NCBI RefSeq assembly: GCF_900233005.1
Contig: NZ_LT960613.1
Coordinates: 18,267-82,266 of the forward strand
Direction: 5' to 3'
DNA length: 64,000 nt
DNA from: Vibrio tapetis subsp. tapetis
GTDB taxonomy: Bacteria > Pseudomonadota > Gammaproteobacteria > Enterobacterales > Vibrionaceae
Below, one piece after another: positions 18,132 through 47,102 of this stretch (the stretch's first letter is position 1; each line of letters opens with the position of its first letter). The position numbers and the translations under genes were made by a program. A model generated the notes under the pieces. That model ran no database searches and was not told where the DNA came from. It saw only the letters and a list, made by a program, of their open reading frames with translations.

Positions 18132-18491
18132 CTACCCTTTTTTTTCGCCTGCAAGATAATCCTCGACACTTTTATCAACCAAGGCCGTATTGGATTTTCT
18201 TTGCTCAATGGAATCGGCTTTATTTTTGTAATACCTCTCACCATCAAAGCTATGCGCTAAATTTAAATTTAATACCCCTTGAACTTGCCTAACTCTGCGA
18301 TACGTATCTTCCATCAACTCACGGTTTGATGGACGATCGTCATCGCTATCATTAAGTTTGATCCGCAACGCCAACGTCAAAAGCTGGCGAGCGGCTTCTG
18401 CATCACTCAACTTCTCTCTCTTTTTAAACTTAACGAAATCTTGCTCTAACTTCCCATTAAGGGAAGTTTGTAAAGGGTAAGAACGCGACAT
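18132..18491 (-). CDS. Probable ribbon-helix-helix relaxosome accessory protein, 3' end altered by IS
   Basis: The 119-aa product begins MSRSYPLQTSLNGKLEQDF followed by REKLSDAEAARQLLTLAL, the strand-helix-helix pattern of RHH DNA-binding proteins such as TraY and mobilisation accessory proteins. The rest is charged and helical. It is convergent with traI and flanks the candidate oriT, the expected place for a nicking accessory factor. The last Gly codon and the stop (GGG TAG) lie inside the right inverted repeat of the IS4 element. The original C-terminus has therefore been replaced. Function is inferred from fold and place. Confidence 0.6.
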   Translation of the reverse strand: MSRSYPLQTSLNGKLEQDFVKFKKREKLSDAEAARQLLTLALRIKLNDSDDDRPSNRELMEDTYRRVRQVQGVLNLNLAHSFDGERYYKNKADSIEQRKSNTALVDKSVEDYLAGEKKG

Positions 18492-18819: not shown

Positions 18820-19035
18820 ATGCTTTTATATTTTTACAGACAACCATTTAAATCGTTTTCCGATTTAGCGTGGTGTGTGGGAACTTTCAGAGAAAGTAAA
18901 AAGTCGGGGCGGCTTCATCAGCTTGAGTGGGTAGAACTTGAGGAAATAAAACCAGGCCGAAGAAAAAAGACGAACCCATGGCGACTGAATCGGGGATGCA
19001 GAAAGGGACGAACAGGCAAGAGCAAAGAGGAATGA
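18820..19035 (+). CDS. Possible small basic protein, 71 aa
   Basis: ATG at 18820 opens a 71-codon frame encoding a basic product ending GCRKGRTGKSKEE. It is followed 18 bases later by a long hairpin, which slightly supports a real transcript. No clear Shine-Dalgarno and no family are seen. It is on the strand opposite to the neighbouring leading-region genes. Confidence 0.3.
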   Translation: MLLYFYRQPFKSFSDLAWCVGTFRESKKSGRLHQLEWVELEEIKPGRRKKTNPWRLNRGCRKGRTGKSKEE

Positions 19036-20417: not shown

Positions 20418-20762
20418 TTAAAACGGGCAACGGTCAAATGAATAAAGGGTTTCAAAAGGCGTAGACACATCCAGCACAACAAAACAGTCCCTTAACGTCC
20501 CGATTTGAAATTGGCGCATGATAAGGGCGCGTACCTCTGCCAGCGTGAACGGGAAGTACTGAGCCTCACGCTGAACAAACCCTGCGGCCTTGAGTTCTTC
20601 TGCTGTAATGTCACTCCACGGCGCAATCGCAAATCCTTGTTGTTCGCTCTTGCTTTGCTCTAAAGAGACATCATGTTTTGGTGAGCTTTCGTGCTCCAGC
20701 GGCGAGACGCTGGTCGCTGTTTGGCATGTAGAGAGAGTTAGGGTTGAGTTTTGTTGCGCCAT
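20418..20762 (-). CDS. Hypothetical leading-region protein with shared N-terminal leader peptide
   Basis: The 114-aa product shares its first 34 residues (MAQQNSTLTLSTCQ..., TSVSPLEHESSPKHDVSL) almost exactly with the gene at 45348-45818, then diverges completely. The same TSVSPL core also appears near the N-terminus of the ParB-like protein at 21446. The common N-terminus continues a common 5' leader, so duplication covered promoter, leader and first codons. The unique part (APWSDITAEELKAAGFVQREAQYFPFT) is unrecognised. Shine-Dalgarno AAGGAAA precedes the ATG. Confidence 0.7.
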   Translation of the reverse strand: MAQQNSTLTLSTCQTATSVSPLEHESSPKHDVSLEQSKSEQQGFAIAPWSDITAEELKAAGFVQREAQYFPFTLAEVRALIMRQFQIGTLRDCFVVLDVSTPFETLYSFDRCPF

Positions 20763-21246
20763 GGGGAGTTTCCTTTTTGTTTGAGTATCACCTTTCGGAG
20801 CCGCTTAGCTGTCCATCGGGCTTTCATGGTTCTCAATAACAAGGGCGCGAAGCGTTCATATACCCTTGTTATTGAGGTTCTGAAAGGTCATGGTTAACAG
20901 CTTGCGAGTCCGTAAGGGGATACGAGTAGAAAGGAAAATCGGCGCATAAAAAACTCGGCCCTTACTCTGCCTTAATGACAGGCAGTGAAAGACAACGAGG
21001 AAGAATGACGAGGCGTAGCGAACGCAGTGAGCGGAGGCGTTGGGTGATTGTTCGCAGGAACGCAATGGCACATCGAGCTTTGCTCGATATTCGTGTCATG
21101 CGTTATCGCGGGAGGAGCGAAGCGACGGAATGAACGGAGCGAAGCGAGAACGCCCAAGAAAACGGAAAGCTCAGCACAAGAAGTCACCTCCACATGCCTC
21201 ACCGATACTTAAGTATTCTCACCCTAAACCTAAACCAGCATGCGTT
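20763..21246 (-). promoter_or_regulatory. Long structured 5' leader repeat, copy 1
   Basis: This non-coding leader is nearly identical to 45819-46217 over about 400 bases. It contains a perfect 14-bp stem (CTCAATAACAAGGG at 20832-20845 with its complement at 20863-20876). It also has a 7-bp stem ATCGAGC-TTT-GCTCGAT at 21072-21088, repeated GAGCGAAGCGA words near 21115-21150, and a short CCTAAA array near 21230. It feeds the - strand gene at 20418, which is transcribed toward the candidate oriT. I propose a single-strand-active promoter like F Frpo/ssi; this is inference. Confidence 0.6.
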
Positions 21247-21445: not shown

Positions 21446-23269
21446 TTAAAAGCCCACGGGCATCCACTGAGCGAAATGCGCCCTTTGTGGCTCTGTCAGT
21501 GAGTTATCTCCCCCATTAAGCCAGACAGTTAATTGCTTCACCAAATCACTCTTCTTGAGCGTTTGGGCGCTCTGTAACCACGTTTCTGACATCACGGGAC
21601 GGGCAATATCAATCAGCGCCTCTTTGTTGATGCGTTTGATGAAGCTGTCCGTGGTTGGTCGCCAGTAATCGGGGGCGTCAAAGGCCAGCGCTTGATAGAG
21701 GAAATTATGAGTGGAGCGGTTATCCCCAACCAGACAAGGCACGAGCATTAATGACGTGGCGAACGCCACTTGCTTGTGTTTTTCTTCACTATCGAGGGCA
21801 ACGAACGCTTGAAAGCGTTCGTGCTCACCGCTTGCCTCATACCACGTCATGTCCAAGCTTTGCTTGTGTTGCTCGATACGCTCAAGTGCTTTGTTCTCAT
21901 TAAAATCCCCTTGCTTTGGCTCAACAGCGCTGTGATGTAGGGTGACATTAATGGGCGCACTCAAGTATTGATTTTGGGCTTTCAGGCACAAAGAGAAGTG
22001 AAGCGCATCGAGCGCAAGTGACGTATTTTGCATCAAGGCATGTTTTGCGATAACAAGGCGGTGCGCGTTCAAATCGTCAGTAAGTGCGCCGGAATAGGTT
22101 GGCTCTGACGCGACAACGTCACTTAAACCCTCTCCTCGTTCGACATCCTTTTCACGGTTTGCTTTCTTGGCATATTCGGCTTGCAAGGCTTTGAGCGCTT
22201 TACGTTCGGATTTCGCCACCAAACCTTTAATGATACAGATATCCCCGTTGTGACCTAACGCGAGAATGCACCCTGCTAACGCTTTCTCGGCTTTCTTATA
22301 TTTACCTTGATTGGCCGTCAGTTCAACATAGCCACGCGATTCATCGTGAGTGCGTGTGAGCAGTATTTCGGTCCATTTCCAGCCCTGCGCGCTCAGTTTA
22401 TCCGCTTCAAGTTGTATCTTAGCCCTCGCAAGCGATTCCATTAAGGCGCGGTCTTCAAAATAGATTTTGTCAGAAAACAAATCCGTGGTGACCATTCCCC
22501 CTGCTTGTTCGTAAGACGCTTGACCAACAAACGTGACGAGTCCGCTTGACGCTTCCAATGCAGATCCTTTGAGCATGTGGCGTACTTGATGTTCAGAATA
22601 CCAAGATTTCTCTTTCACTTGTTCCCACACGTCTCGTTGACGCTCTGGACTGGCAAAGGTGAATAACATGACACGCTCAAGAGAGACGTTGCCCTCGCGG
22701 TATGCTTCAAGGATAGCCGACTCGACCGCCGCTAATTTCATGCGCTGATGCACGTAACGTTGTGTTTTACCAAAGCGTTGCGCGACTTCGGCCACGGTTG
22801 CGCCGTCTTCGACTCTTTTTGAGTACGCCTCAAACTCATCGACTGGGTGCATCGAGGCGCGTGTGACGTTTTCAGTCAATGAGATTTCAGTGGCATCGTG
22901 CGACACGGTGGACGCATTCAAGATTTTAACGGGCACAAGGTATTCAGGCGGGATGTTATTTAATTCAACCAGCGCTTGAAGTTGAGTTAAACGACGACCC
23001 CCACTGATAACAGGATACCGACCTGACTCACAAGGCAGCGCGACCAAGTTTTGAATGACGCCATGCGCCAAGATGGACGCTTGTAGAGATTCATCATCGG
23101 CTTTACTGGCTTTGCTCTTTCGCACGTTTAAATCCGACACCACCAATTGATTAACAGGCAGCATCACAATAGAGGCATCATTTTGTGCAGTTGCCTGAGT
23201 GTCCAGCGGCGATACGCTGGTCGCGTCTTGACGGTTAGAGGGCGCTGAGATTGGGTTGATTGCGTTCAT
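21446..23269 (-). CDS. Large ParB/Spo0J-domain protein of the leading region (YubM-like)
   Basis: The preferred ATG at 23269 (MNAINPISAP) has AAGGAAA ahead of it and gives 607 aa. After a variable N-terminus containing DATSVSPL comes the ParB nuclease-like domain: IVMLPVNQLVVSDLNVRKS, then SGGRRLTQLQAL and EISLTENVTRASMHPVDEFEAY. An HTH follows (DGATVAEVAQRFGKTQRYVHQRMKL). The long C-terminal half is unassigned. Proteins of this size and architecture lie in F-like leading regions and are not the segregation ParB; the true parAB pair is at 59-61 kb. A role early after DNA entry is inferred. Confidence 0.85.
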   Translation of the reverse strand: MNAINPISAPSNRQDATSVSPLDTQATAQNDASIVMLPVNQLVVSDLNVRKSKASKADDESLQASILAHGVIQNLVALPCESGRYPVISGGRRLTQLQALVELNNIPPEYLVPVKILNASTVSHDATEISLTENVTRASMHPVDEFEAYSKRVEDGATVAEVAQRFGKTQRYVHQRMKLAAVESAILEAYREGNVSLERVMLFTFASPERQRDVWEQVKEKSWYSEHQVRHMLKGSALEASSGLVTFVGQASYEQAGGMVTTDLFSDKIYFEDRALMESLARAKIQLEADKLSAQGWKWTEILLTRTHDESRGYVELTANQGKYKKAEKALAGCILALGHNGDICIIKGLVAKSERKALKALQAEYAKKANREKDVERGEGLSDVVASEPTYSGALTDDLNAHRLVIAKHALMQNTSLALDALHFSLCLKAQNQYLSAPINVTLHHSAVEPKQGDFNENKALERIEQHKQSLDMTWYEASGEHERFQAFVALDSEEKHKQVAFATSLMLVPCLVGDNRSTHNFLYQALAFDAPDYWRPTTDSFIKRINKEALIDIARPVMSETWLQSAQTLKKSDLVKQLTVWLNGGDNSLTEPQRAHFAQWMPVGF

Positions 23270-23700
23270 AGCGGTTTTCCTTTTTGGTTCGTTGAGTATC
23301 ACTTCGCTTATTGCCTGGTTTCATCGACTCAACTTGAAAGACCGCTTTGACAAGGGCGCGAAGCGGCGCAGCCTCCCTTGCAAAGAGGGCGAACGTTGAG
23401 AGATTAAGAAATCAGCGCGGGTAAGCAAGTGAGCTCAAATCAAAAAGTAAAACAAAATGAACGAAGCACCGAAGCGATGACGCCCTCTTAGCGTAAAGGC
23501 GTGAAATAGAGCGGAGTGCGTCGCTTCAGACGCCTAACGACGCGTTTGCGTGAGGGATTGTCTATCTGGAACTTAGAAGCGCATTGAGCTTGCTCAATAT
23601 GGGCTTCAAGTTAGCGATAGGAGGAGGAACGACGAAAAGCCCGACCGCTTGCGGTCACGCCCTAACGGGAACGGCTGCAGGAAGAGCATAAAGTGTGTTC
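23270..23700 (-). promoter_or_regulatory. Diverged structured 5' leader of the ParB-like gene
   Basis: This leader shares the layout of the copies at 20763 and 45819: TTTCCTTTTTG, GAGTATCAC, ACAAGGGCGCGAAGCG followed by CCCTTG, and then a distal hairpin. Here the hairpin reads ATTGAGC-TT-GCTCAAT (23583-23598) instead of ATCGAGC/GCTCGAT, a compensatory C-G to T-A pair change. That supports a folded structure under selection. No gene lies in the interval. Confidence 0.55.
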
Positions 23701-23765
23701 ATTTTGAGCATCAATTGAACCGTTAGAGAGCGATCACAACAGTTAGACCTTTAACTCTAAGAAGG

Positions 23766-24090
23766 TTTTGCCCCAAAATCGTTCAGAGCTAAAGCTCTAC
23801 ACATTTTAGGGAACGTGCGTTTTCCCTACCAAATCTAATCGATGAAAGAGGGTAAGAGCATGCTCATTTTAGTTTGAGCAGGCGAAAAATCATATTGCTC
23901 AGACACCGCTGGAATTATACGGAAATTTTCGGCAATTTCTGAAGTTCATATCTTAGACGCTAGGCAGAACAGGCTTTCGATTGAGCGTGAGTATAATTAG
24001 AGTTGACTGATGATTGGTTGCATATAATTAAAGAATAAATCCGTTTAATAAGCGTCATAGCTCAAGTCAGACTTACTGCTCCAAAAATTA
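23766..24090 (+). repeat. Long direct repeat, copy 1 (left edge of accessory island)
   Basis: TTTGCCCCAAAATCG...GCGTTTTCCCTACCAAATC...CAATTTCTGAAGTTCA...GCATATAAT is repeated with about 80-85% identity (by eye) at about 39480-39880. Shorter relatives lie at 25868 and 29920. It contains a TAGGGAA...TTCCCTA stem. The two long copies bracket the toxin-antitoxin, cassette and restriction genes. Confidence 0.75.
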
Positions 24091-24996: not shown

Positions 24997-25090
24997 TAAC
25001 TTATTGATTGTTAATTGAACTTTGATTGGAAAGGCTGCATTATAGGACGATAAAAGACGACCAAAAGTCGTATAGAAAGCGTTATGTTAA
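24997..25090 (+). repeat. attC-like integron recombination site 1
   Basis: The site runs from TAACTTATTGATTG to GAAAGCGTTATGTT, with internal dyad GACGACCAAAAGTCGT. It closely resembles the reconstructed site split by the IS21 element (26013-26056 plus 28648-28702). It lies directly upstream of a cassette-like gene, as expected for attC. Confidence 0.55.
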
Positions 25091-25690: not shown

Positions 25691-26056
25691 CATAACAAGA
25701 TAATTGGACTCCCCACCTACTCAGTCTATTCTGAACCGTGAAGTGTTTAAGGGAGTCTAATTATGAAAAACTGATCTGCTCCAATCAGACTGGGCATTCA
25801 CTAAGCGACTTTCCCATACCTGACGTTATCTGTATTTCCCTAATTTAAGCAATTGCTCTAAGTAATTTTTGCCCCAAAATCATTTAGTGCAAAAGATCAT
25901 ACACATCCTATTAATACGTATTTTCCCTACCAACATTTATCCGAAAGGGGTGTGCTACGAGCATGGAAAGAAATTATGCCTCATGTCGAATCTAACCATC
26001 ACTTCGTCATGCTAACTTATTGATTGTCAATTAACTGCTGAATGAAAGACGGCATC
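25691..26056. other. Repeat-bearing interval before the IS21-family element
   Basis: No gene is seen. AATTGGACTCCC and GGGAGTCTAATT (about 25700-25763) form a long-spaced inverted repeat resembling an IS remnant. TTTTTGCCCCAAAATC with TATTTTCCCTACC (about 25864-25932) is a short copy of the island repeat at 23766. The left half of an attC-like site occupies 26013-26056. Confidence 0.5.
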
Positions 26057-28647: not shown

Positions 28648-28702
28648 GGCATCATAGCAATATAGAAAACGGCTGGCAGCCGTATAGAAAGCGTGATGAG
28701 TT
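28648..28702 (+). repeat. attC-like site 2, right half (split by IS21)
   Basis: Joined to 26013-26056 with one target duplication removed, this gives a site matching attC-like site 1. Both have TAACTTATTGATTG at the start and CGTATAGAAAGCGT(T/G)ATG at the end, with an internal ACGGCTGGCAGCCGT dyad. Confidence 0.5.
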
Positions 28703-39443: not shown

Positions 39444-39490
39444 TGTCCAGAGACGTGCCAGCACGATCACTGCTAGAACGTTTATGCCCC
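39444..39490 (+). repeat. 47-bp perfect direct repeat, right copy
   Basis: Identical to 29885-29931 and in the same orientation. It runs directly into the second long copy of the island repeat (GCCCCTTTTTGCG onward). Confidence 0.9.
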
Positions 39491-39880
39491 TTTTTGCGTT
39501 AGAACAAATGCTCTACACCCTCTAGGGAGCGTGCGTTTTCCCTATCAAATCTAATCCGATGCAAGAGCGTTAGGCCGAGCTTATTTTGGGCGTTTGTAGG
39601 TTGAAAATCGTATTGCTTGCTCAGAATCCGCCGGAGTTATACGAAAACTTTCGGCAATTTCTGAAGTTCACATCCTAGTCGCTAGGCAATACGGGCATTA
39701 GATTGAGCGGGAGTATAATTAGCGTTATGATTAGTCGCATATAATCAGAAAAAATGCATCTATATAGCGTTAAATGGATTTGATTTGATTTATCTTGCAC
39801 CAGAAAAGCGAAAAGCACCCCGCGGGGTGCTCTCTAGAGTGCTCAAGTCAGAGTCATTGGCGAGAATTTTATTACCAAAA
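39484..39880 (+). repeat. Long direct repeat, copy 2
   Basis: This diverged copy of 23766-24090 contains TAGGGAGCGTGCGTTTTCCCTA, CAATTTCTGAAGTTCACATCCTAG and GCATATAATCAG in the same order. A terminator hairpin (39815-39830) interrupts the part matching GCTCAAGTCAGA at 24060. Confidence 0.75.
39805..39830 (-). terminator. Terminator for the Abi_2-like gene
   Basis: The perfect palindrome GCACCCCGCGGGGTGC (39815-39830) is followed on the - strand by TTTTCGCTTTT. It lies about 105 bases downstream of the - strand gene at 39936-40880. Confidence 0.75.
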
Positions 39881-45347: not shown

Positions 45348-45818
45348 TTAACATTCCGACGTGCCAATCCAGCGACCGTCGCTATCAAAGGCATCCCATG
45401 GTTCGGTCGTCGTGTCGTTCTCTTCCCATTGCTCTGCCCGCCCTTCCCAACATGGCTTGATAGACACCGGCTCTTGATCCGTCAATTGGTTGAGGTAACA
45501 CTTAACCAGGGCCTCTTTAGGGAGCGCACAAAAGAATTTCGTGGGATGAACATGATCCGTTTGCGCCACAAACTGCATGGCTACCTGCTCGCTCATGTTC
45601 CACACGTACTTTTCTAGATACTCAAAAGAGGCCTCATCATTTAAACCTTCACGCTGCGCTAAGATCTGTTTTGAATCGGAGTTAATCAATTGAATGAAGC
45701 CCCTTTCGCCCTCGGACAAAGAGACATCATGTTTTGGTGAGCTTTCGTGCTCCAGCGGCGAGACGCTGGTCGCTGTTTGGCATGTAGAGAGAGTTAGGGT
45801 TGAGTTTTGTTGCGCCAT
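45348..45818 (-). CDS. Hypothetical protein with the shared leader peptide
   Basis: The first 34 of 156 residues equal those of the gene at 20418-20762 (MAQQNSTLTLSTCQ, TSVSPLEHESSPKHDVSL). The rest is unrelated and acidic (QWEENDTTTEPWDAFDSDGRW). The duplication therefore spans leader, Shine-Dalgarno and first codons but not the body, as if a promoter-plus-start cassette had been placed on two different genes. No function is assigned. Confidence 0.65.
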   Translation of the reverse strand: MAQQNSTLTLSTCQTATSVSPLEHESSPKHDVSLSEGERGFIQLINSDSKQILAQREGLNDEASFEYLEKYVWNMSEQVAMQFVAQTDHVHPTKFFCALPKEALVKCYLNQLTDQEPVSIKPCWEGRAEQWEENDTTTEPWDAFDSDGRWIGTSEC

Positions 45819-46320
45819 GGGGAGTTTCCTTTTTGTTTGAGTATCACCTTTCGGAGCCGCTTAGCTGTCCATCGGGCTTTCATGGTTCTCAATAACAAGG
45901 GCGCGAAGCGTTCATATACCCTTGTTATTGGGGTTCTGAAAGATCATGGTTAACAGCTTGCGAGTCCGTAAGGTGATGCGAGTAGAAAGGAAAATCGGCG
46001 CATAAAAAACTCGGCCCTTACTCTGTCTTAATGACAGGCAGTGAAAGGCAACGAGGAAGAATGACGAGGCGTAGCGAACGCAGTAAGCGGAGGCGTTGGG
46101 TGATTGTTCGCAGGAACGCAATGGCACATCGAGCTTTGCTCGATATTCGTGTCATGCGTTATCGCGGGAGGAGCGAAGCGACGGAATGAACGGAGCGAAG
46201 CGAGAACGCCCAAGAAAAGGTCAGGATTTGCGAAAATATATCTCAAAAAACAGCGCATTGATGCTTGATAATTCTCAGCCCCTCCTTAGACAAACAGACC
46301 TAGACCTAGACCTAGACCAG
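45819..46320 (-). promoter_or_regulatory. Long structured 5' leader repeat, copy 2
   Basis: Nearly identical to 20763-21160. The first stem is CTCAATAACAAGGG (45888-45901) against CCCTTGTTATTGGG (45919-45932), where the one change gives a G-T pair and keeps the stem. The second stem ATCGAGC / GCTCGAT lies at 46128-46144. At the distal end, where copy 1 has CCTAAA units, there is a GACCTA array (46297-46318). No gene is called inside. Confidence 0.6.
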
Positions 46321-46343: not shown

Positions 46344-46580
46344 TTAAGATTCAGAAAAAAGCCACTCATCAGCTTCATTAAACGCTTGCTCAACAATGTT
46401 ATTTGCGAGAGTTTTTTTATCTTTATGTGCATAAATATCGAGTCGATTACTCGTGCCAGCACGTACACGGACTTTTGCATCAGGAAAGATCCCATGCAGC
46501 CTTTTCTCTAACTCAACCGTGATCAAAGAGAGCCCGTTTTTAGGTAACTTATCCTTTTGAACCATCATTTCAACTCGCAT
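46344..46580 (-). CDS. DinI-like SOS-regulated protein
   Basis: From ATG 46580 (MRVEMMVQKDKLP) behind GGAGG the product is 78 aa. It follows the DinI-family pattern: MRVE-x-M, a helix ITVELEKRLHGIFPDAKVRVRAG, then NNIVEQAFNEADEWLF. DinI proteins bind RecA filaments and modulate the SOS response. A perfect LexA box lies 30 bases upstream of the ATG, which confirms the regulatory context. On conjugative plasmids such genes may damp the SOS response set off by incoming single-stranded DNA, as PsiB does; that is inference. Confidence 0.85.
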   Translation of the reverse strand: MRVEMMVQKDKLPKNGLSLITVELEKRLHGIFPDAKVRVRAGTSNRLDIYAHKDKKTLANNIVEQAFNEADEWLFSES

Positions 46581-46609
46581 AATTAACGCCTCCAGAGCCA
46601 CACGTAATA

Positions 46610-46625
46610 CTGTATGAAAATACAG
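46610..46625 (-). promoter_or_regulatory. LexA-binding SOS box
   Basis: CTGTATGAAAATACAG matches CTGT-N8-ACAG perfectly and extends to TACTGTATGAAAATACAGTA. It lies upstream of the DinI-like gene, in position to cover its promoter. Confidence 0.9.
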
Positions 46626-46719
46626 TATCATACCGCGTATTTTTATGTAAAGCGCTTTAATATTTGCCTATTAATCTCAAAAAACCTGCCCGTTCCTTTT
46701 GAACTGTCTGGAGAGCGGA

Positions 46720-46884
46720 TCAGTCGCTCTCCAAAAGCTCGACCAGTTTAATGTATTCATTTATGGTCAGCGGCTCCGGTGACTGTAGAACGGTTTTTCT
46801 GATCAGCTCTTTAGTCATATCAAGAGAGCCATTAAGATATTGCTGAGTAACAAAGAGAAGTCGCTTGAAAATCACCGTTGTTGG
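46720..46884 (-). pseudogene. 3' fragment of an unknown gene
   Basis: The frame reading QQYLNGSLDMTKELIRKTVLQ and ending KLVELLESD looks coding. Its upstream part runs directly into the third leader-repeat copy at about 46885, so the 5' end is lost or it begins at the internal ATG (46818, 32 codons). A hairpin GGAGAGCG / CGCTCTCC (46710-46732) overlaps its end. Confidence 0.35.
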
Positions 46885-47102
46885 CAGGAACGCAATGGCA
46901 CATCGAGCTTTGCTCGATATCGGTGGCATGCGTTATCGCGGGAGGCGGGAGGCGGGAGGCGACGGAATAAACCGAGCGAAGCGAGAACGCTAAGAAAAGG
47001 CAAGGCTTTGCGAAAAGAACAAAAAACACCTCACTGATGCTTGAGTATTCTCTGCCCCAAAGCCAAAGCCAAAGCCAAAGCCAAAGCCAAAGCCAAAGCC
47101 AG
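46885..47102 (-). promoter_or_regulatory. Structured leader repeat, partial copy 3
   Basis: It shares GGAACGCAATGGCACATCGAGC and the stem ATCGAGC / GCTCGAT (46902-46918), then GTTATCGCGGGAGGCGGGAGG and GAGCGAAGCGAGAACGC. The gene-proximal half, with the 14-bp stem, is missing. Confidence 0.6.
47057..47102 (+). repeat. CCAAAG hexanucleotide tandem array
   Basis: Seven perfect CCAAAG units (47057-47098) end in CCAG. They occupy the same place, just before CAGCATG, as the CCTAAA units near 21230 and the GACCTA units near 46300 in the other leader copies. Confidence 0.95.

Follow-up and report, generated by a model that had tools for sequence, protein, structure and literature searches.

Folded leaders repeated in the leading region of Vibrio tapetis plasmid pVT1 resemble the single-stranded promoters of plasmid F

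The Frpo sequences of plasmid F, described by Masai and Arai in 1997, are reportedly single-stranded promoters, and to our knowledge promoters of this kind have been demonstrated in very few plasmids. According to the available part of Couturier et al. (2023; PMC9849209), F derivatives without Frpo1 or Frpo2 show no significant early rise of the downstream fusion proteins. In IncI1-type plasmids (ColIb-P9 and relatives) the sites ssi1-3 drive anti-restriction and anti-SOS operons, as set out in the accessible portion of PMC10104558. A 2024 survey of leading regions took as its queries five known Frpo/ssi sequences (E 1e-6) and candidates from four islands, and the accessible main text of that survey does not contain the word Vibrio (PMC11541004). 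In the text of the 2011 paper on plasmid pVT1 (PMC3033894) the terms oriT, leading region, intergenic and nic site do not occur.

The window analysed here is a stretch of 64,000 nucleotides, 18267-82266 of the 82,266-bp plasmid pVT1 of Vibrio tapetis, which is typed MOBF / MPF_F, and positions are those of the window unless another sequence is named. Within it a unit recurs that carries on the + strand, from the coding sequence outwards, a coding hairpin, a long hairpin termed h1, a less conserved middle and a distal fold termed h2. The features are the following.

18850..18880, + strand: F-like nic region from a motif scan, with the hairpin AAATCG-TTTTC-CGATTT (18850-18866), an A, and GCGTGGTGTGTGG (18868-18880)
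20418..20762, - strand: gene behind leader A, 114 aa, N-terminal tag MAQQNST..ATSVSPLEHESSPKHD; no Pfam match above cut-off
20696..20713, + strand: coding hairpin of copy A, CCAGCG-GCGAGA-CGCTGG
20763..20946, + strand: h1 of copy A, long imperfect hairpin, candidate ssDNA promoter of the transferred strand
21033..21185, + strand: h2 of copy A, distal structured element with GNA-loop mini-hairpins
21446..23269, - strand: ParB-like gene, 607 aa; Pfam HTH_ParB above and ParB_N just under cut-off
23203..23220, + strand: coding hairpin of copy D, CCAGCG-GCGATA-CGCTGG
23270..23444, + strand: h1 of the diverged copy D, from a profile search with copy D itself among the queries
23544..23690, + strand: h2 of the diverged copy D, from a covariance model that includes copy D
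45348..45818, - strand: gene behind leader B, 156 aa, N-terminal tag as in the leader A gene; no Pfam match
45752..45769, + strand: coding hairpin of copy B, CCAGCG-GCGAGA-CGCTGG
45819..46002, + strand: h1 of copy B
46089..46240, + strand: h2 of copy B, from the h2 model
46344..46631, - strand: DinI-like gene (Pfam DinI, E 1.1e-15), the first gene after copy C, with no h1 between
46871..47021, + strand: copy C, h2 alone with no h1 found, from the h2 model; similarity continues to about 47067

A sequence-only reading of the window had noted that some 400 nt upstream of the gene at 20418 recur before the gene at 45348. This repeat is real and larger than claimed, with 99% identity between 20662-20961 of copy A and 45718-46017 of copy B and 100% identity between 21048-21124 and 46104-46180, and given its length and identity a chance origin of the duplication is excluded. 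It extends about 100 nt into the coding sequences (20662-20762; 45718-45818), and the final ~84 nt of leader A (21163-21246) are absent from copy B. The partial copy that had been placed at 46885-47102 is present, but comprises the distal element only (46871-47021 by the h2 model), and the diverged copy proposed upstream of the ParB-like gene was recovered by profile (23270-23444; 23544-23690), its likeness to copy A being visible in alignments. The V. tapetis genome holds nine near-full and three distal-only leader copies over three contigs. On contig C1, between 3.61 and 3.74 Mb, seven leader copies (five near-full, two distal-only) lie within 132 kb, and this clustering suggests integrated plasmid or conjugative-element DNA. 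The window also contains diverged repeats that are not part of the leaders (23757-24004, 25858-25941 and 39473-39726; 64-85% identity) and a 50-nt direct repeat (74%) at 25037-25086 and 28649-28698 that flanks istA/istB genes.

The orientation of transfer was read from the nic region. Cleavage presumably falls between 18878 and 18879, by analogy with the F cleavage site, and F has a like arrangement of hairpin and nic site, with GCGTGGGGTGTGG on its transferred strand. The order that characterises an F-like MOBF oriT, a hairpin and then the nic motif GCGTGG(G/T)GTGTGG, is found in pVT1; the nic region matches 41 Vibrio plasmid records, all 40 of the 41 that are listed reaching the motif, and the arms of the hairpin swap in concert between two types, AAATCG/CGATTT and CGCATTG/CAATGCG. 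Because the F-like motif and the arm-exchanging hairpin both lie on the + strand, this strand is taken as the transferred strand of pVT1, with entry proceeding toward higher coordinates, and genes of the - strand would therefore have the + strand as template and point to oriT. The leaders accordingly stand in the leading region with the transferred strand, assigned by likeness of the nic strand to F, as template of the downstream genes. In 14 plasmid loci with an oriT, h1 is on the nic strand in 39 of 39 copies, 1.75 to 28 kb downstream, although these copies are related and the loci were fetched mostly on the leading side, which biases the downstream-of-oriT count. For this reason four MOBF plasmids were scanned whole (pHLE minus 5.5 kb), and all 16 h1 (16/16) and all nine h2 copies (9/9) fell on the nic strand and the leading side. 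The h2 covariance model gave 23 matches in 20 sources (21 distinct, its own training copies included), and those in oriT-bearing loci are all on the nic strand. The sequence thus bears out the proposal that the genes lie on the leading side of the candidate oriT and are transcribed toward it, and the predicted nick strand, with the nic motif on +, does not run opposite to the direction that this proposal requires. On the traI side of the nic site lies a small - strand gene without a Pfam match (18132-18491), and a similar-sized gene of the same direction is present on that side in the other 13 oriT loci; this position suggests that the product of 18132-18491 is an oriT accessory protein.

The first fold, h1, is one imperfect hairpin of about 172 nt that starts at the ribosome-binding region/start codon, and on the transferred strand it has the long imperfect stem-loop that marks an Frpo-type element. 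From the fetched loci, in which some plasmids occur twice, 78 copies were gathered, of which 36 were non-redundant (shared 15-mers) and long enough; the covariation alignment (A1) holds 34 of these 36, leaving out L032, whose far arm aligns poorly, and one near-duplicate in L046. A further alignment (A3) holds 23 chosen copies. Across A1, 90.8% of cells pair, both sides are changed in 200 cells vs 63.9 in shuffles, and the covariation score is 0.385 vs 0.137 shuffled, a value as high being reached in 0 of 500 shuffles; on one of the five covariation measures (further pair types), 60 of 500 shuffles came as high. When the partner is shifted by 1 to 3 bases, pairing falls to 35-46%. With DNA parameters the transferred strand outfolds its complement in 35 of the 36 copies (mean 3.5 kcal/mol, mean z -5.4). 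Among pairs that both strands are predicted to form, the counts of G.T and A.C are close (29 vs 22), so that loops and a small number of conserved wobble positions are probably the main source of this bias. The wobble asymmetry was rejected as proof of the folded strand, as the 138 G.T vs 32 A.C had been counted on pairs derived from the transferred strand.

The leaders are rich in small hairpins of a distinct type. Across 37 non-redundant leaders, GCGAAGC and GCGCAGC, each with two G-C pairs and a GNA loop, number 57 on the transferred strand against 2 on the complement, a frequency roughly 20-fold that of the plasmid background; many are in homologous places and so not independent events. 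If the third loop base is left free, the counts become 67 vs 11, while GCGTAGC on its own is unbiased (7 vs 9). In copy A, CGCGAAGCG is present at the apex of h1. DNA mini-hairpins with a GNA loop are extraordinarily stable, with a Tm of 78 C for GCGAAGC, according to the consulted portion of PMC4686876.

The sequence-only reading had named transcription solely from a conventional duplex promoter outside the structure as an outcome that would count against it, and no conventional duplex promoter above chance was found in the leader of 35 of the 36 copies. On the duplex sense strand, the best s70 score of the 400-nt leader exceeds that of 95% of shuffles in a single copy of the 36, and that of h1 alone does so in 0 of 36; for comparison, three of nine other pVT1 gene starts examined reach 5% or less in the same shuffle test. 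On the transferred strand, the 3' arm of h1 has as its best pair, in 10 of 36 copies, TTAACA or a one-letter variant followed after N15-17 by AATGAT/TGTGAT; TTAACA is exact in 6. A convincing conserved -35/-10 pair did not emerge from h1: the top transferred-strand column averages 4.2 bits and is not the TTAACA column (2.9), and the sense strand reaches 2.6. The idea that the entering + strand folds into promoters is partly supported: it stands as regards the strand, the oriT side and a hairpin with compensatory change, and folding the copies as single-stranded DNA gave the long hairpin and the better fold of the transferred strand, but not clear -35/-10 boxes in duplex arms. Such boxes in the arms of h1 are candidates at most, and here lies the main gap in the promoter reading.

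The distal fold, h2, comprises two stems, one closing and one covarying, together with a long hairpin and two mini-hairpins. Its covariation alignment (A2) holds 19 of 24 non-redundant copies, the five most divergent (L031, L033, L034, L040, L054) having been dropped, which favours good pairing figures; its score, from which one doubtful pair (columns 37/72) was excluded, is 0.300 vs 0.122 shuffled, with 0 of 500 shuffles reaching it on any of the five measures. The transferred strand outfolds the complement in only 17 of 24 h2 copies, and the wobble count is 31 G.T vs 21 A.C, or 31 vs 10 without columns 37/72. Since h2 also occurs without h1, at 46871-47021 upstream of the DinI-like gene and at L042:3181-3332, it may have another function. 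A comparison of the window with Rfam 15 gave no family at gathering score, although Rfam, a library of RNA families, is a weak test for h2.

Conservation continues into the genes. The coding hairpin lies 67 nt inside the coding sequence, and the genes behind the leaders have in common an N-terminal stretch of about 33 residues. The start could be located for 34 of 36 non-redundant copies, and the tag, by a pattern defined after reading the copies, is present in 30 of the 34. All 30 tagged copies have a perfect 6-bp stem with a 6-nt loop at nearly fixed distance. The stem is CCAGCG in 19 and is replaced by concerted exchange in 11 (CCAACG in four, CCCACG in two, CAAACG in two, CCAAGT in two and CCTGCG in one), and the loop is reversed in one redundant copy (L006). 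The hairpin is read in phase 1 in 19 and in phase 2 in 11 of the 30, so that different residues (ATSVSPLE or SDQRFAAG) stand between like flanks. Because it is preserved across two reading frames, the coding hairpin is, judging from these alignments, kept by selection as nucleic acid. A protein signal, for example for T4SS transfer, was rejected as the main cause of the tag on the same grounds, the middle of the tag changing phase with the hairpin kept; a minor protein role, the flanking residues being conserved, is conceivable.

The genes served are diverse. In pVT1 they are the ParB-like gene and genes for two proteins without a Pfam match, and in relatives they encode RadC-like, DUF3560 and ArdC proteins and further unknowns. 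The ParB-like protein of pVT1 matches the leading-region ParB-family protein of F (BLASTP 23% over 603 aa, E 8e-33), whose gene, by gene order, lies in the ssb-psiB cluster, the Frpo2 operon. A search of related Vibrio plasmids for the repeat, which had been suggested as a check, was productive: leader BLAST against PLSDB returned 94 plasmid records, 79 of them from Vibrio, 13 from Photobacterium and one each from Thaumasiovibrio and Aliivibrio, and the leader was found in 24 of 227 Vibrio genomes, that of V. tapetis itself counted. Of 26 stretches that a degenerate pattern picked out of the genome collection, 20, all Vibrio/Vibrionales, also match the h1 profile; the six non-Vibrio stretches have no h1 profile match and were taken as chance.

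The MOBP, MPF_T plasmid pES100 of Aliivibrio fischeri carries the h1 plus h2 unit twice, before ArdC and before an unknown gene, and given its presence on this plasmid the element is not tied to one transfer system. With the pES100 leader as query 95 records were found, including Shewanella (15), Klebsiella (6), Citrobacter (4), Proteus (3) and Escherichia (2), and with 22 extra coding bases 427 records. Loci from Citrobacter, Klebsiella (typed MOBC) and Shewanella (typed MOBF) gave four h1 profile matches (E 4e-19 to 6e-26), directly before ArdC in three cases and ParB in one; the would-be template strand folds better in four of four, and in the Shewanella plasmid, the only one of these loci in which an oriT was sought, an F-like nic motif lies on that strand. 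Scans with h1 and h2 models of 369 genomes across the class, under strict filters and with one genome per species, found the V. tapetis genome only, Vibrio being represented by V. tapetis alone, and the spread to Shewanella and enteric bacteria therefore rests on plasmid records. Among the literature matches listed on Frpo and ssDNA promoters, also in combination with Vibrio, which mostly leave subscription journals uncovered, there was no paper on the h1/h2 element.

On balance, h1 is probably a diverged and widespread Frpo-like single-stranded-DNA promoter, and h2 may aid priming. Each h1 plus h2 unit would then be a control element that acts when the + strand enters the recipient: the entering strand would fold, h1 would form a promoter-like imperfect duplex beside the start codon, and host RNA polymerase would initiate inside h1 and read the + strand toward its 5' end. 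The product would be an early mRNA for establishment genes, which in pVT1 are the ParB-like gene and the two unknown genes and in relatives ArdC, RadC-like and DUF3560 genes. Complementary-strand synthesis would replace the hairpin by a duplex without a good promoter, and expression would stop. The h2 fold probably helps, either in docking polymerase or priming proteins or in starting complementary-strand synthesis, and the coding hairpin, within the first ~70 coding bases, is kept as nucleic acid.

Other explanations of the same folds have to be considered. Were h1 and h2 primarily single-strand initiation sites, loading a primosome or serving as RNA-polymerase primers, with gene proximity secondary, the strong structure of h2, its position on the nic strand wherever the same locus has an oriT and its occurrence without h1 at 46871-47021 would all be accounted for, and Frpo itself primes DNA synthesis in vitro, according to the accessible part of a review (PMC7690428). 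This is unlikely, however, given that 34 of the 36 non-redundant h1 copies have an ATG with an open frame at most about 14 nt from their gene-side edge, and a priming site needs neither several copies per plasmid, each before a separate gene, nor conservation that extends into the coding sequence. The closeness of h1 to the gene is equally what would be seen if it were an attenuator or translational lock of the mRNA, its strand agreement only reflecting the one-way direction of leading genes. A perfect pairing of at least 7 bases between the Shine-Dalgarno zone and the far arm is possible in 22 of 36 copies vs 391 of 1800 shuffled, the compensatory changes fit RNA folding equally well, and the strand-neutral wobble counts do not decide between the strands. 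Yet RNA parameters, too, favour the transferred strand over the mRNA-sense strand in 33 of 36 copies, the stable DNA-type mini-hairpins sit on the transferred strand, and the leader lacks a promoter above chance in 35 of 36 copies, so that an RNA leader as the main function is quite improbable. As the ribosome-binding zone can pair with the far arm, h1 may nevertheless lock for translation the read-through transcripts made from duplex DNA, and it could do so beside its main function.

That the leaders are simply recent duplicates of gene starts, homogenised by recombination and of no special function, would agree with near-identical copies within one genome and shared N-terminal tags. It is very hard to reconcile with diverged copies that retain pairing by compensatory change, with a coding hairpin that survives in two reading frames and with unrelated genes (RadC, ParB, ArdC, DUF3560) that carry h1 in several genera, and can be given almost no weight. 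A bolder extension of the promoter reading is tentative and itself rather doubtful: the coding hairpin, the GNA-capped promoter hairpin and h2 might form the three-part fold of a separate, widely shared class of ssDNA switch that acts on incoming strands alone, passes from one relaxase type to another and links early transcription to the onset of complementary-strand synthesis. If so, a DNA fold, the coding hairpin, would have shaped the start of a protein, a new case of its kind; the maintenance of this hairpin in two frames is in any event a clean oddity. Should the h1 family be an ssDNA promoter, the strategy would be wider than thought, the family being present in many copies in Vibrionaceae and having relatives in Shewanella and Enterobacteriaceae. 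Its dozens of natural variants would then help to define the requirements of RNA polymerase on ssDNA, and it would mark establishment and anti-restriction genes of marine plasmids.

The kinship of h1 with Frpo can also be sought in the letters, where the similarity is suggestive only. TTGAGT-N(0-15)-GGAGCCGC occurs in the 20 kb of F that were examined only in Frpo1 and Frpo2, on the transferred strand, with one match in 300 shuffles, and TTGAGT..GGAGCCGC near the hairpin base is common to h1 and the two Frpos, the shared words having been chosen after comparison. GGTTGTGG and TTTTGAGT are in F confined to the two Frpos, and GGTTGTGG is found in 7 of 36 h1 copies, none from the window, whose h1 copies lack the full ordered word pattern of F and carry GGTTCTG. 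Leader BLAST against 5,426 E. coli genomes, their plasmids included, gave one 29-nt match (E 0.2) and thus no significant link to Frpo; the best match of the h1 HMM in F (E 0.7) is not significant and is located in Frpo2, and the h1 CM has no match in Frpo. Frpo2 shares 17 of the 7-letter words (complement 19), a number reached by 36 of 1000 shuffles; 6 of the 8-letter words present in at least six copies (complement 7; 53 of 1000 shuffles); and 16 of those in at least three copies (complement 15; 0 of 1000). This k-mer result is mixed and lacks strand specificity, and the top windows of F belong mostly to a third hairpin outside Frpo. That third large hairpin of the F leading region (NC_002483.1, 56339-56757) lies directly upstream of the antirestriction gene of F, is more stable on the transferred strand than on the complement (-112.8 vs -106.2), and has an apex identical to a Shewanella h1 apex in 22 of 23 nt (E 2e-5), the strongest h1-like stretch in F; it is a candidate for a further single-stranded promoter of F. 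In the F positive controls the transferred strand folds better in both Frpo2 (-98.7 vs -91.0) and Frpo1 (-101.2 vs -89.8).

Compared by general type, primosome assembly and ssi sites are, like h2, strand-specific folded DNA near the point of plasmid entry. With ssi1-3, set beside pVT1 by description, h1 has in common that a leading region holds several such elements; as differences, the stretches of pVT1 that were read have no annotated PsiB, and its annotated SSB adjoins the replication gene, not a leader. Frpo is longer, at about 300 nt vs ~172 for h1, and pVT1 units differ from it by the presence of h2, of an apex with GNA mini-hairpins and of the coding hairpin; the consulted passages on Frpo mention no counterpart of h2 or of the coding hairpin. 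To speak of a new class of ssDNA promoter, as the sequence-only reading had considered, is nevertheless too strong, since h1 resembles Frpo of F in architecture and in some ordered words, the likeness being drawn from positional and structural tests that do not in themselves establish class membership. Frpo1 and Frpo2 are, like h1, non-coding, duplicated in the leading region and placed immediately before establishment genes; their template is the transferred strand, which forms a long imperfect hairpin, and the Frpo2 gene cluster of F holds a homologue of the ParB-like gene of pVT1.
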